Assembly (NCBI GenBank): GCA_947459825.1
Contig: CANHFH010000016.1
Location: 1-32,768 of the forward strand
DNA from: Pseudomonadota bacterium
GTDB taxonomy: Bacteria > Pseudomonadota > Gammaproteobacteria > Steroidobacterales > Steroidobacteraceae
Reading direction: 5' to 3'
Length of the DNA: 32,768 nucleotides
The position numbers were made by a program, and so were the translations under genes. Below, piece after piece: positions 26,747 through 32,698 of this stretch (within the stretch, counting starts at the first letter, position 1; each line of letters begins with the position of its first letter). Below the pieces are notes generated by a model, which worked only from the letters and a program-made list of their open reading frames with translations, made no database searches and had not been told where the DNA came from.

Positions 26747-28271
26747 AGGCCGATGCGCGGGCCAGCGTGCCGGAGCAGGCCGTCGGACGCGGGCAGCCGC
26801 TGCTGCGCGGGCAGATGAGGCTCGCCGGAGATTCCGCGGCGCGCGATACCCAAGCTATGTTCAGCACATGCCCGACGTTGCGGATCGCGGCGGCGGCATC
26901 CACGGGCAGAGCTGCGCTGCCGCCGGCACGACGGCAGGCGGAATCGATGCCGCCGACGAGCGCCTGCGCGTCGAGGCCTTGCGCCGAGAACGCGGGCGCG
27001 AGGTCGATCCCCACCGACAACACATGCGAGGCACCGGCCGCGTCGCGGGTGCGGAGCGAATGGCAGCAGAAGAGCCGCGGTGCGGTGCCGTCATGCATCA
27101 CCGAGACCTGCGACACGGGCGGCATCGACTCTGCGTCGGGTGCGCGGTCGCGCAGCAGCCGGAACACCGCCCAGTGCGGACAGGGGTCGGGCACAAGGCT
27201 CATGTTGCCCCAGGGCAGCGGGATGCCGTTGCCGCGGTACACGGCGCGCAGGTAGCCCGGTTCGTAGCCATCGAAGAAATGCCAATGGCGGTACGGCGAC
27301 ACCGCCGTCATGCGGCGCATCATCACCGCAGGCGTGATGCCTAGCCGTGTCCCCGCCGACAATTCATGCCGTTCGCGGACCAGGAAGCGCCGGAAGGGCT
27401 GCTTGGGGCAGAGCAGCGCCCCGGCGAAGGCGCTGCATTCGAAATCGCGCCAAGCGAGCAGCACATCGCGTGCCGACATCGCGGCGGGAGCGCTCCCCGG
27501 CGGGGTGTCCTCGAGGCCGGCGCCTGCGGCGCTGTGCGGCGGGACCACGCCGTCGCCGTTGTGCAGGATGCGATGACCGACGAAGAAGGCGAGGGTGTAC
27601 TTGAGCCGCGCCTCCTGGTCCTTGAGGCGGCGGTTGATGACGATCGTGCCCGGCGGCTCGAAGCGCGCCCGCAGCAGCCTGTCGGCACGGCCGCCGCGGC
27701 CGTCGTCGGCCCAGCGGACGCTGAGGCCCGTATCGCGCACGATCGCGAACACCTCATCGAGGCTCAAGGGCATGCGACGGCGCCCGACCGTCTCGGCGGC
27801 GCGCTCTATGTCGGGGAACTCGTTGCGCCGTGTCTCCTGCCATGTGCGGACGAGAAGGCGTGCGAACTGCGTGCCGCTGGTGCCGGTCTGCGCCAGCAGT
27901 TCCGGCAACGCGACCTGCAGCAGTTCCCGCGAGAACAGGAACCCCGGTTCGAGCGGCATGGCCATCGGCGTGGGCGGGGCGTCAGCGGGCTCGTTGTCGG
28001 CGATCCCGGCGCCGGAGGCCGCAGCCACGGATTGCCGGTCGAGGAACCATGCCATGTCCTTGCCGAACACGGCGGCCAACACCCCGAGCATCGCACCGGA
28101 AGGGACGCGCTTACCGGTCTCTACCATGCTCAGGTAGGACACCGACGGTGCGTGCTGCGCGTCGATCTGCACACAGCGCGCCGAGAGCTCCTCGAGGGTC
28201 AGGCCGTTCCGTTTGCGCAGACCGCGCAGGCGGGAGCCGAGGAAGTGGCCTTGGCGTAGCAATCCGGTCAT
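26745..28271 (-). CDS. ScfR/RamB-type XRE family transcriptional regulator beside aceB
   Basis: 508 residues from ATG 28271. An XRE helix-turn-helix covers about 10-78 (LRGLRKRNGLTLEELS, SYLSMVETGKRVPS). The middle resembles the IrrE/ImmA-like peptidase fold, but the HExxH motif reads H233-R-I-L-H237, so it is probably non-catalytic. The C-terminal half matches the DUF2083 domain of short-chain fatty acyl-CoA regulators (FECSAFAGALLCP, PYRHWHFFDGYEPGY, DPCPHWAVFRLL). Relatives include RamB and PccR, which control glyoxylate-shunt or propionyl-CoA genes. Divergence from aceB suggests that job here. ATG 28271 is chosen because the 17-residue extension to 28322 would cross the operator repeats. 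Confidence 0.88.
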   Translation of the reverse strand: MTGLLRQGHFLGSRLRGLRKRNGLTLEELSARCVQIDAQHAPSVSYLSMVETGKRVPSGAMLGVLAAVFGKDMAWFLDRQSVAAASGAGIADNEPADAPPTPMAMPLEPGFLFSRELLQVALPELLAQTGTSGTQFARLLVRTWQETRRNEFPDIERAAETVGRRRMPLSLDEVFAIVRDTGLSVRWADDGRGGRADRLLRARFEPPGTIVINRRLKDQEARLKYTLAFFVGHRILHNGDGVVPPHSAAGAGLEDTPPGSAPAAMSARDVLLAWRDFECSAFAGALLCPKQPFRRFLVRERHELSAGTRLGITPAVMMRRMTAVSPYRHWHFFDGYEPGYLRAVYRGNGIPLPWGNMSLVPDPCPHWAVFRLLRDRAPDAESMPPVSQVSVMHDGTAPRLFCCHSLRTRDAAGASHVLSVGIDLAPAFSAQGLDAQALVGGIDSACRRAGGSAALPVDAAAAIRNVGHVLNIAWVSRAAESPASLICPRSSGCPRPTACSGTLARASA

Positions 28272-28310
28272 GTGAAATTGACAGCGTGAAATTTCGACTG
28301 TGAAAATTTT
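28272..28310. promoter_or_regulatory. Three GTGAAATT(T) direct repeats, probable regulator operator
   Basis: GTGAAATT at 28272, GTGAAATTT at 28286 and GTGAAAATTTT at 28300 start exactly 14 bp apart. They lie between the regulator start (28271) and aceB (28337). They overlap a plus-strand TTGACA (28278-28283) and a minus-strand TAAAAT (28306-28311), so binding would affect both genes. The repeats are AT-rich within a GC-rich region. Confidence 0.7.
28278..28307 (+). promoter_or_regulatory. aceB: Candidate aceB promoter
   Basis: A perfect -35 TTGACA at 28278-28283, an 18-bp spacer and GAAAAT (28302-28307) as a four-of-six -10. Start would be near 28314, giving a leader of about 23 nt without a visible Shine-Dalgarno site. 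A TAGAAT at 28324-28329 is an alternative -10 that would make the message nearly leaderless. Confidence 0.4.
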
Positions 28311-28333
28311 ACTCCTCGGCACTTAGAATTCAA
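28306..28333 (-). promoter_or_regulatory. Candidate promoter of the ScfR-type regulator
   Basis: On the minus strand, TTGAAT (28333 to 28328), a 16-bp spacer and TAAAAT (28311 to 28306). The start would be near 28299, and the leader would contain two of the three direct repeats, consistent with self-repression. Confidence 0.4.
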
Positions 28334-28336
28334 CCC

Positions 28337-29938
28337 ATGCCGCCCCTCGCCATCGTCGCCGACGCACCCGCCCGACCCGCCGACGAAGGGGTCCTCACCG
28401 ACCCGGCGCTCGTCTTCCTGGCCGAGCTCGTCGAGCGTTTCGGCCCGCGGGTCCAGCAGCTGCTCAAGGCGCGCGAGATGCGTCAGGCCAGGATCGACGC
28501 CGGGGAGACGCCGGACTTCCTGCCCGAGACCGCCGCGGTGCGCGCCGGGGACTGGCGCGTCGCCCCGATACCGGCGGATCTGCTGGACCGTCGCGTGGAG
28601 ATCACGGGTCCTACCGACCGGAAGATGATCATCAACGCGCTGAACTCGGGCGCGCGGGTGTTCATGGCCGACTGCGAGGACTCGATGTCGCCGAGCTGGG
28701 ACAACGTGGTCGCCGGTCAGGCGAACCTCCGCGATGCGGTGCGGCGGCGGATCGACTTCACCACCCCCGAGGGCAAAGCCTATCGGCTGGTCGACCGGCC
28801 GGCGGTGTTGATGGTGCGGCCGCGCGGCTGGCATCTGATCGAGAAGCATCTCGTGCATGTCGACGCCGCGTACGCCGGCGTGCCCGTCCCCGGTGCCCTG
28901 GTGGACTTCGGGCTCTATCTGTTCCACAACCATGCCGAGCTCGCGGCCCGCGGCACCGGTCCGTACTTCTATCTGCCCAAGCTCGAGAGCCATCGCGAAG
29001 CGCGTCTGTGGGCGGAGGTCTTCGACTTCGCGGAGCGTCGGCTCGGCCTCGCACACGGCACCATCCGCTGCACGGTGCTCATCGAGACCATCCTCGCCGC
29101 GTTCGAGATGGACGAGATCCTGTTCGAACTGCGCGACCACATCGTCGGTCTCAACTGCGGACGCTGGGACTACATCTTCAGCTTCATCAAGAAGTTCGCG
29201 CAGCGGCCCGGCTTCCTGCTGCCCGACCGGCAGCAGGTGACGATGACCACCCACTTCCTGCGTTCGTATTCGCTGCTCTGCATCAAGACCTGTCATCGCC
29301 GGGGCGCTTTCGCGATGGGCGGCATGGCGGCGCAGATCCCGATCAAGAACGACCCGGTCGCCAACGATGCCGCGATCGCCAAGGTGCGCGCGGACAAGGA
29401 GCGCGAGGCGGGCGATGGGCACGACGGCACTTGGGTCGCGCACCCGGCGTTGGTGCCGGTCGCCATGGAGGTCTTCGACCGTCTGATGCCGACCCCCAAC
29501 CAGGTGCACCGTCTGCGCGAAGACATCGAGGTCGGCGCGGGCGACCTGCTGCAGGTGCCGCAGGGCACCATCACCGAGGGCGGGCTGCGGAACAACATCA
29601 GTGTCGCCCTCCAGTACATGGCTGCTTGGCTTTCCGGCAACGGCTGCGTGCCCATCCACAACCTCATGGAGGACGCGGCGACCGCCGAGATCTCGCGCGC
29701 CCAGGTCTGGCAGTGGATCCGCGACCCGCGTGGGGTCCTAGACGACGGTCGCAAGGTCACCGCCGAACTGTTCCGCACGATGCTCGCGGACGAGCGTTCT
29801 CGGCTGCGCGGCGCGCTCGGCGAGGCGGCCTACGCCGCCGGCAATTTCGACCGCGCGGCGGTCCTGCTCGACGGCATCACGACCGCCGAGGCCTTCGAGA
29901 GTTTCCTGACCACCGTCGGCTACCGCGAGCTCGCCTGA
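28337..29938 (+). CDS. aceB: Malate synthase A
   Basis: 533 residues (E. coli AceB 533). It condenses glyoxylate with acetyl-CoA to malate in the glyoxylate shunt. The family signature [17 protein letters not shown] is at about 266-282. Catalytic Arg161 lies in VRPRGW, and Asp446 in [14 protein letters not shown] has the E. coli number. [20 protein letters not shown] is also conserved. Transcribed away from the ScfR-type regulator, with aceA 43 bp downstream. Regulation by acetate or acetyl-CoA status through that regulator is inference from family and placement. Confidence 0.98.
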
Positions 29939-29981: not shown

Positions 29982-31268
<1,287 letters not shown>

Positions 31269-31369: not shown

Positions 31370-32698
31370 ATGAAGTACGAACACATCCGGGTGCCCGAGC
31401 AGGGCGCCCGCATCACCACCAACGCCGACGGTAGCCTCGAGGTCCCTGACCGTCCGATCATCCCGTTCATCGAGGGTGACGGCATCGGCATCGACATCAC
31501 CCCGGTGATGCGCAAGGTGGTCGACGCCGCGGTCGAACGCGCGTACGGCGGCAAGCGCCGTATCGAGTGGATGGAGGTCTACGCCGGCGAGAAGGCGAAC
31601 CGCGTCTGCGGCACCTGGTTCCCGGACGAGTCGCTGCAGGCGCTGCGTGAGTTCGTGGTGTCGATCAAGGGTCCGCTCGGCACGCCGGTCGGCGGCGGCA
31701 TCCGCTCGCTCAACGTGGTGATGCGCCAGACGCTGGACCTCTACGCCTGCGTGCGCCCGATCCGTTATTTCCCCGGCGTCGCGACGCCCATGCAGGACGC
31801 CTCGCTCACCGACATGGTGGTGTTCCGCGAGAACACCGAGGACATCTACGCCGGCATCGAATACCCGGCCGGTTCCCAGGATGTCCAACGGCTGATCCAC
31901 TTCCTGCAGACGGAGCTCAAGGCGCGCGGCATCCGCTTCCCGGACTCCTCCGGCATCGGCATCAAGCCTGTCTCGAAGGAGGGCAGCCAGCGCCTGATCC
32001 GGATGGCGATCCGCTACGCCATCGACAACGACCGCGTGTCCGTGACCTTGGTCCACAAGGGCAACATCATGAAGTACACGGAGGGCGCGTTCCGGAACTG
32101 GGGCTACCAGCTCGCCAAGGACGAGTTCGGCGCGGTCGAGATCGGCGGGGGTCCGTGGCTGTCGTTCCGCAACCCTGTCACGGGCAAGGAGATCGTGGTC
32201 AAGGACGTCATCGCCGACAACTTCCTGCAGCAGGTGCTGCTGCGGCCGGAAGAATACGATGTCATCGCCACGCTCAACCTCAACGGCGATTACATCTCCG
32301 ATGCGCTCGCCGCCCAGGTGGGCGGCATCGGCATCGCGCCGGGCGGCAACATCGGCCATGGGCTCGCGGTGTTCGAGGCGACGCACGGCACGGCACCGGG
32401 TTTCGCGGGCAAGGACCGGGTCAACCCGGGTTCCATCATCCTCTCGGCCGAGATGATGCTGCGCTACATCAAGTGGACCGAGGCGGCCGACCTCATCATC
32501 AAGGGTGTGGCGAACACCATCGCGGCCAAGGAGCTCACCTACGATCTCGCGCGGCTGCGTGAAGCGATCCGCGCGAGCAAGCGCGAGCTCGCAGCGCGGC
32601 GCAACGTCGAAGAGGCGATGCAGCAGTTGATCCCGGGCGCCAAGCTCATGAGCTGCTCCGGCTTCGGCGACGCCATCATCCGGCACATGGCGGATTGA
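31370..32698 (+). CDS. icd: Isocitrate dehydrogenase, E. coli-type homodimeric class
   Basis: 442 residues against 416 in E. coli, with identical numbering up to residue 396. It oxidises isocitrate to 2-oxoglutarate. Substrate and metal residues match: Ser113, Asn115, Arg119, Arg129, Arg153, Tyr160, Lys230, Asp307, Asp311. Ser113 is the residue AceK phosphorylates in E. coli. Coenzyme residues are mixed: Lys344 and Tyr345 of E. coli are Gly and Phe, while Val351, Tyr391 and Arg395 are kept, so NADP use is likely but not certain. A net 24-residue charged helical insertion (397-422) explains the extra length. No Shine-Dalgarno site is visible before ATG 31370. Confidence 0.97.

Follow-up and report, generated by a model that had tools for sequence, protein, structure and literature searches.

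Three 14-bp-phased repeats between a DUF3612 regulator gene and aceB are the probable operator of a gammaproteobacterial glyoxylate-shunt regulator

Introduction

In the window studied here (the whole stretch of DNA analysed, 32,768 nucleotides in length), three AT-rich repeats lie in the gap between a regulator gene and the divergent malate synthase gene aceB, in a genome whose closest named relatives belong to Steroidobacteraceae and to other MAGs of Gammaproteobacteria, among which it presumably falls. This arrangement raises the question of whether the repeats are the operator of the adjacent regulator and, if so, to which family such a regulator would belong and how it might act on the genes of the glyoxylate shunt, the pathway for growth on acetate or fats.

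Results

A first-pass annotation of this DNA had described three repeats with an exact 14-bp period, starting at 28272, 28286, and 28300, and all three are present in the window as described, far beyond chance expectation (Table 1). Lone 8-mers resembling GTGAAATT are not rare, as seven were found in the window with one mismatch or fewer, against 4.75 expected; the 14-bp-phased triple scores 23/24, and dinucleotide shuffling of the 65-bp gap (20,000 rounds) never gave more than 18/24. In a scan of the 2.6-Mb genome allowing three mismatches or fewer, the window array was the sole three-unit site, so that the operator reading gains no support from a second target in the source genome. A weak two-unit match, GTGAAATGCCCCGTGTGAAAAT, is present in the same genome at G000:C43:2018-2039 (L003), where the full three-unit site is absent.

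The array occupies most of the 65-bp gap between the start codon of the regulator (28271) and that of aceB (28337). A regulator start at the GTG at 28322, corresponding to the long open reading frame, was considered and dropped, as homologues align from the ATG at 28271; the repeats are therefore wholly intergenic, with unit 1 abutting the regulator start codon. Judging from its spacing, aceA is likely to be in one operon with aceB, and the membership of icd in this operon is uncertain.

Table 1. Features of the regulator-aceB locus (window coordinates)
Feature	Sequence	Position	Strand	Remarks
Repeat copy 1	GTGAAATT	28272-28279		Exact at this place
Repeat copy 2	GTGAAATTT	28286-28294		Exact at this place
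Repeat copy 3	GTGAAAATTT	28300-28309		One mismatch to GTGAAATT
Putative operator unit 1	TGTGAAATTGACAGC	28271..28285	+	Family consensus is the 13-bp palindrome TGTnAAnTTnACA
Putative operator unit 2	GTGAAATTTCGACT	28286..28299	+	Family consensus GTnAAnTTTCTATT, right half degenerate
Putative operator unit 3	GTGAAAATTTTACT	28300..28313	+	Family consensus GTnWAAWT; lies over the aceB promoter at its -35 position
-10 element, aceB promoter	TAGAAT	28324-28329	+	24 bp after unit 3 start
Regulator, 508 aa		26745..28271	-	N-terminal HTH, PrpR-like sensor, C-terminal DUF3612 (PF12268)
aceB, malate synthase A		28337..29938	+	TIGR01344, 5.9e-243; divergent target
aceA, isocitrate lyase		29982..31268	+	PF00463; 43 bp after aceB
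icd, isocitrate dehydrogenase		31370..32698	+	PF00180; 101 bp after aceA

Conservation of the repeat and of its spacing in relatives, which the first-pass annotation had proposed as a check, was assessed using loci from 98 relatives, a genome collection, a distant gammaproteobacterial family, and Vibrio and Pseudoalteromonas records. After removal of duplicates, 131 upstream regions were available, and an array was called when at least 18 of 24 positions matched at period 14. Three units at exactly 14 bp were found upstream of the homologous regulator in 129/131 non-redundant loci, with a mean score of 21.7/24 over all 131; no signal was seen in these regions at other periods (10-13 and 15-18 bp), where means ranged between 12.8 and 15.3, and the maximum reached by shuffled upstream regions (n=13,100) was 20. 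The array is conserved as far as regulators of approximately 45% protein identity, those of Vibrio and Pseudoalteromonas included, and while its distance from the regulator start varies between 0 and 101 bp, units and phase stay fixed. Concerning the two misses, L104 does carry three units, spaced by 14 and 15 bp, and L156, whose upstream context differs, is the sole regulator locus where no array was found within the 350-450 bp scanned upstream.

Across the 129 loci, unit 1 has the consensus T-GT-n-AA-n-TT-n-AC-A, a 13-bp palindrome whose non-n positions carry approximately 1-2 bits, most of them about 1.9; unit 2 reads TGTnAAnTTT, followed by a weaker CTAT, and unit 3 reads TGTnWAAWT. The flanks of the array are nearly information-free up to a TAnnnT element. 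The first-pass annotation had also pointed to a TTGACA and a TAAAAT overlapping the repeats, and these are indeed present (28278-28283 on the plus strand and 28307-28312 on the minus strand, respectively), but we regard both as incidental because they are not conserved across loci. Position 8 of unit 1, the base that creates TTGACA, is in fact free in the 129 loci (C 48%, A 23%, T 20%, and G 9%; information content 0.23).

In 120 of the 129 loci, the TAnnnT element, a candidate -10 element, lies 23-26 bp past the start of unit 3 (mean 9.7 and maximum 18 in shuffles), and such conserved spacing makes the -35 position fall inside unit 3, where the available hexamers (GTAAAT, TGAAAT, and GAAATT) are poor -35 boxes. 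The aceB transcript is predicted to start near 28336, which would place the unit centres at about -59, -45, and -31; TAGAAT at 28324 and this start would make the aceB mRNA leaderless. No Shine-Dalgarno sequence is visible before either aceB (28329-28337) or the regulator (28271). A Shine-Dalgarno sequence, AAGGAG, precedes aceA before 29982, and more distant relatives have longer leaders. On the minus strand, a -10 element for the regulator took no fixed position in more than 28% of the loci, and the regulator promoter was not located.

The regulator had been labelled as ScfR-type by the first-pass annotation, a view that holds for the fold, which is shared with PrpR, but not for the Pfam family. 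The protein matches PF12268 (DUF3612) at 1.3e-62, with 211.5 bits against a curated cut-off of 25, and its N terminus matches HTH_31 and HTH_3 above cut-off; PF12268 is also matched by 25 of 25 relatives. PF09856, the C-terminal domain of ScfR/IsaR proteins, gave no match in the regulator, and matched 2/25 relatives with a best E of 0.015. PF06114 (IrrE N-terminal-like), the middle domain of ScfR/IsaR proteins, reached an E of 0.04 in the window protein, below cut-off, and matched 22/25 relatives weakly (best 3.9e-6); NCBIfam has no family for this regulator. When the AlphaFold model of the regulator (mean pLDDT 79) was searched with Foldseek, Mycobacterium tuberculosis PrpR was the top match (E 7e-11), and VIA-align superposed the model on PrpR 6cyj with a Z of 23.7 and an rmsd of 3.4 over 280 residues at 19% identity, with the next fold matches, CapP and IrrE-like proteins, at a Z of 12-14, well below PrpR. 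Profile comparison with 14 PF09856 proteins aligned 345 columns (E 1e-16; hhalign probability 98.8). The link to PrpR rests on fold and profile comparison, because a PDB sequence search with the regulator profile returned HTH domains only.

In PrpR, a [4Fe-4S] cluster is held by Cys363 and a C-X2-C-X4-C motif, and the protein binds CoA (PMC6765138). The C-X2-C-X4-C cluster motif of ScfR/IsaR proteins was not found in our regulator, where C487, C493, and C499 are invariant with spacing C-X5-C-X5-C, an arrangement seen in 146/149 regulator sequences. C364, in the invariant DPCPxWAVF, aligns to the cysteine of PrpR CPLW (Cys363), which lies 84 residues before C-X2-C in that protein. A recognition helix of the form PS(V/T/M)SYLSM(I/V/L/M)E is present in 142/149 sequences, paralleling the invariant DNA. 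Based on sequence and model comparison, the regulator appears to work like the ScfR/IsaR proteins and to be a distant relative of them; it is not filed among them because some of their defining marks were looked for and are missing here.

To follow the array at the genome scale we used a degenerate pattern with 22 fixed bases and two mismatches or fewer, with the pattern read backward as control. The pattern was found in 41/98 relatives, every one of which carries the regulator, and the reversed control in 0/98. It occurs in 41 of 44 genomes with the regulator and in none of the 54 without (Fisher 2e-24, computed on genomes that are not independent); the three carriers without a match are G013, which has a diverged array, and G022 and G071, whose regulator genes are partial. 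Approximately 19 genomes without the regulator retain a close aceB, none with the pattern, and nine such aceB loci, read directly, matched at best 12-14/22 bases versus 21-22 in regulator loci. We acknowledge that physical linkage between operator and regulator gene, together with the relatedness of the genomes, makes this co-occurrence in part a matter of co-inheritance. In G027 and G044, aceB is located elsewhere and lacks the site.

The regulator diverges from aceB in 60 loci and from aceA in 48 (duplicates included); elsewhere its divergent neighbour is aceK (L081), malate synthase G (L040 and L261), or, judging from the N-terminal sequence, an isocitrate lyase of another type (L150 and L160). 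In Vibrio L161 and others, the divergent gene encodes a standalone malate-synthase-G insertion-domain protein (PF20658). Unlinked sites are three only, in two genomes of one genus: the site at G079:C5:53897 precedes an isocitrate lyase, those at G079:C3:18408 and G065:C22:38657 precede PF20658 proteins, and all three have TAnnnT 24 bp past the start of unit 3. Of all the evidence, these sites before genes of one and the same pathway speak most strongly for an operator function of the array, beyond mere hitch-hiking with the regulator gene. The standalone PF20658 proteins, which match the alpha/beta insertion domain of malate synthase G, are about 150-190 aa long, each behind an array (L161:3230-3808, L259:2548-3066, and L260:3024-3485), and are annotated as 'malate synthase' in Vibrio; the catalytic barrel is missing from them.

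Discussion

With high probability, the three 14-bp units serve the adjacent DUF3612 regulator as its operator, and the regulator would bind them directly. The first-pass annotation had attributed the repeats to this regulator, and such attribution is borne out by their conservation, spacing included, wherever the regulator is (L156 apart). According to the mechanism we propose, the N-terminal HTH would read TGTnAAnTT half-sites, unit 1 being a full palindrome and units 2 and 3 half-sites in the same orientation, and a regulator multimer (dimer or tetramer) might span the approximately 42 bp, or four helical turns, of the array. Occupation of unit 3, at the -35 position, would give the regulator control of the aceB promoter. 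A [4Fe-4S] cluster is probably held by Cys364, Cys487, Cys493, and Cys499 in the PrpR-like sensor, which could bind acyl-CoA or a related effector, with altered oligomer or DNA contacts as the outcome, and aceB-aceA would be switched when carbon must enter via acetyl-CoA. As unit 1 abuts the regulator start codon, the same binding should also limit the regulator's own expression, and autoregulation is likely in the source genome.

With regard to the sign of control, by analogy with known systems, we lean only just toward a dual or activating action on aceB. RamB of Paracoccus denitrificans is an activator on acetate and a repressor on succinate (PMC10370305), and a dual mode of this kind (activation on acetate, repression otherwise) would be slightly likelier here than pure repression because no good -35 hexamer exists. 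The alternative is that the array is still the regulator's operator, with the protein acting as a plain repressor that would keep RNA polymerase off the two divergent promoters until an inducer releases it, with no activation; such a reading concerns the sign of control alone and not the pairing of operator and regulator. It falls somewhat short of an even chance in our estimate, as it would fit the overlap of unit 3 with the -35 position and the contact of unit 1 with the regulator start codon, as well as the repression of aceA and aceB by RamB in Corynebacterium glutamicum (PMC4448153), but the poor -35 hexamers would leave a weak promoter once freed, and in P. denitrificans activation on acetate requires RamB (PMC10370305).

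Quite improbable, by comparison, is that the repeats are bound by some other, global regulator (CRP-like or similar) that happens to act on the glyoxylate genes. CRP half-sites resemble TGTGA/TCACA and lie 6 bp apart; the TGTGA/TCACA half-sites of the array do look CRP-like, but the gap between them is 3 bp. Five regulators have been predicted for Shewanella aceBA, the DUF3612 family not being among them (PMC3223726), a point in favour of this reading; against a global regulator are the usual one site per genome, the confinement of the pattern to genomes with the regulator, and the lack of a site at the tested aceB loci of regulator-less genomes. That the AT-rich repeats are mere promoter or UP-element sequence, periodic by chance, is barely credible: TTGACA and TAAAAT do occur and have promoter-like scores, but position 8 of unit 1 is variable where operator positions reach about 2 bits across many families, and promoters are not characterised by an exact 14-bp phase.

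Returning to the array as operator of the DUF3612 regulator, its closest published counterparts are ScfR/IsaR proteins (PrpR, RamB, PccR, and MccR; PF09856), which likewise adjoin or diverge from acetate or propionate assimilation genes and share the N-terminal HTH, the PrpR fold, the CPxW cysteine, and three C-terminal cysteines. They differ in cysteine spacing (C-X2-C-X4-C, here C-X5-C-X5-C), in having PF09856, and in their operators, which are TTTGCAAA-type pairs and not three TGTnAAnTT units at 14 bp. The first-pass annotation had anticipated that motif and 14-bp phasing depart from RamB/PccR-family sites, and published operators do differ in both sequence and spacing: RamB/PrpR-type sites have been described as TTTGCAAA palindromes (PMC6765138) or as AA/GAACTTTGCAAA (PMC4448153), and the class 2 RamB operator as two boxes with an 18-bp spacer (PMC10370305). 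Loci of PF09856 proteins score 15/22 or less for the three-unit operator. The P. denitrificans system resembles ours in that ramB is divergent from ms-icl (aceB-aceA), in controlling the glyoxylate cycle, and in its near-identical repeated boxes, which are required in the RamB system (PMC10370305); it differs in having two boxes with the 18-bp spacer and in the classification of RamB as ScfR (PMC10370305). The DUF3612 proteins of Vibrio and Pseudoalteromonas belong to the same family and have the same operator upstream, but their divergent gene is that for the standalone insertion-domain protein.

Taken as a whole, it is reasonably probable that the DUF3612 proteins form a branch of their own among iron-sulfur acyl-CoA regulators, widespread in Gammaproteobacteria and marked by a C-X5-C-X5-C cluster motif and a three-unit operator spanning four helical turns. 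In this reading they would be dedicated to switching the glyoxylate shunt, with unlinked isocitrate lyase, malate synthase G, and orphan insertion-domain genes among the targets. An uncharacterised regulator family would gain both a DNA code and a pathway, and any genome bearing PF12268 could then be scanned for targets; PrpR/RamB-type control would extend to Gammaproteobacteria such as Vibrio and Pseudoalteromonas, with another cysteine motif and another operator. The array precedes glyoxylate-shunt genes in many Gammaproteobacteria, and the orphan malate-synthase-G insertion-domain proteins would be tied to this pathway, a connection for which we found no earlier description. In our literature search, which covered mainly openly accessible papers, DUF3612 and PF12268 appeared in no paper found; we found no description of the DUF3612 family or of the three-unit operator, and the 2015 ScfR family paper or RegPrecise may mention either.

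Two further observations concern gene content. VC0735 of V. cholerae, which sits between aceB and aceA and is upregulated along with both in a ribD mutant (PMC5816637), was considered as a DUF3612 gene and dropped, as in the Vibrio records examined the DUF3612 gene adjoins a different, small gene. In L095, L098, L105, and L120 (Burkholderiales and other MAGs), operator and regulator adjoin a reductase-like gene instead of a glyoxylate-shunt gene; the L105 frame gave no Pfam match, and the N terminus encoded at these four loci resembles ketopantoate reductases.
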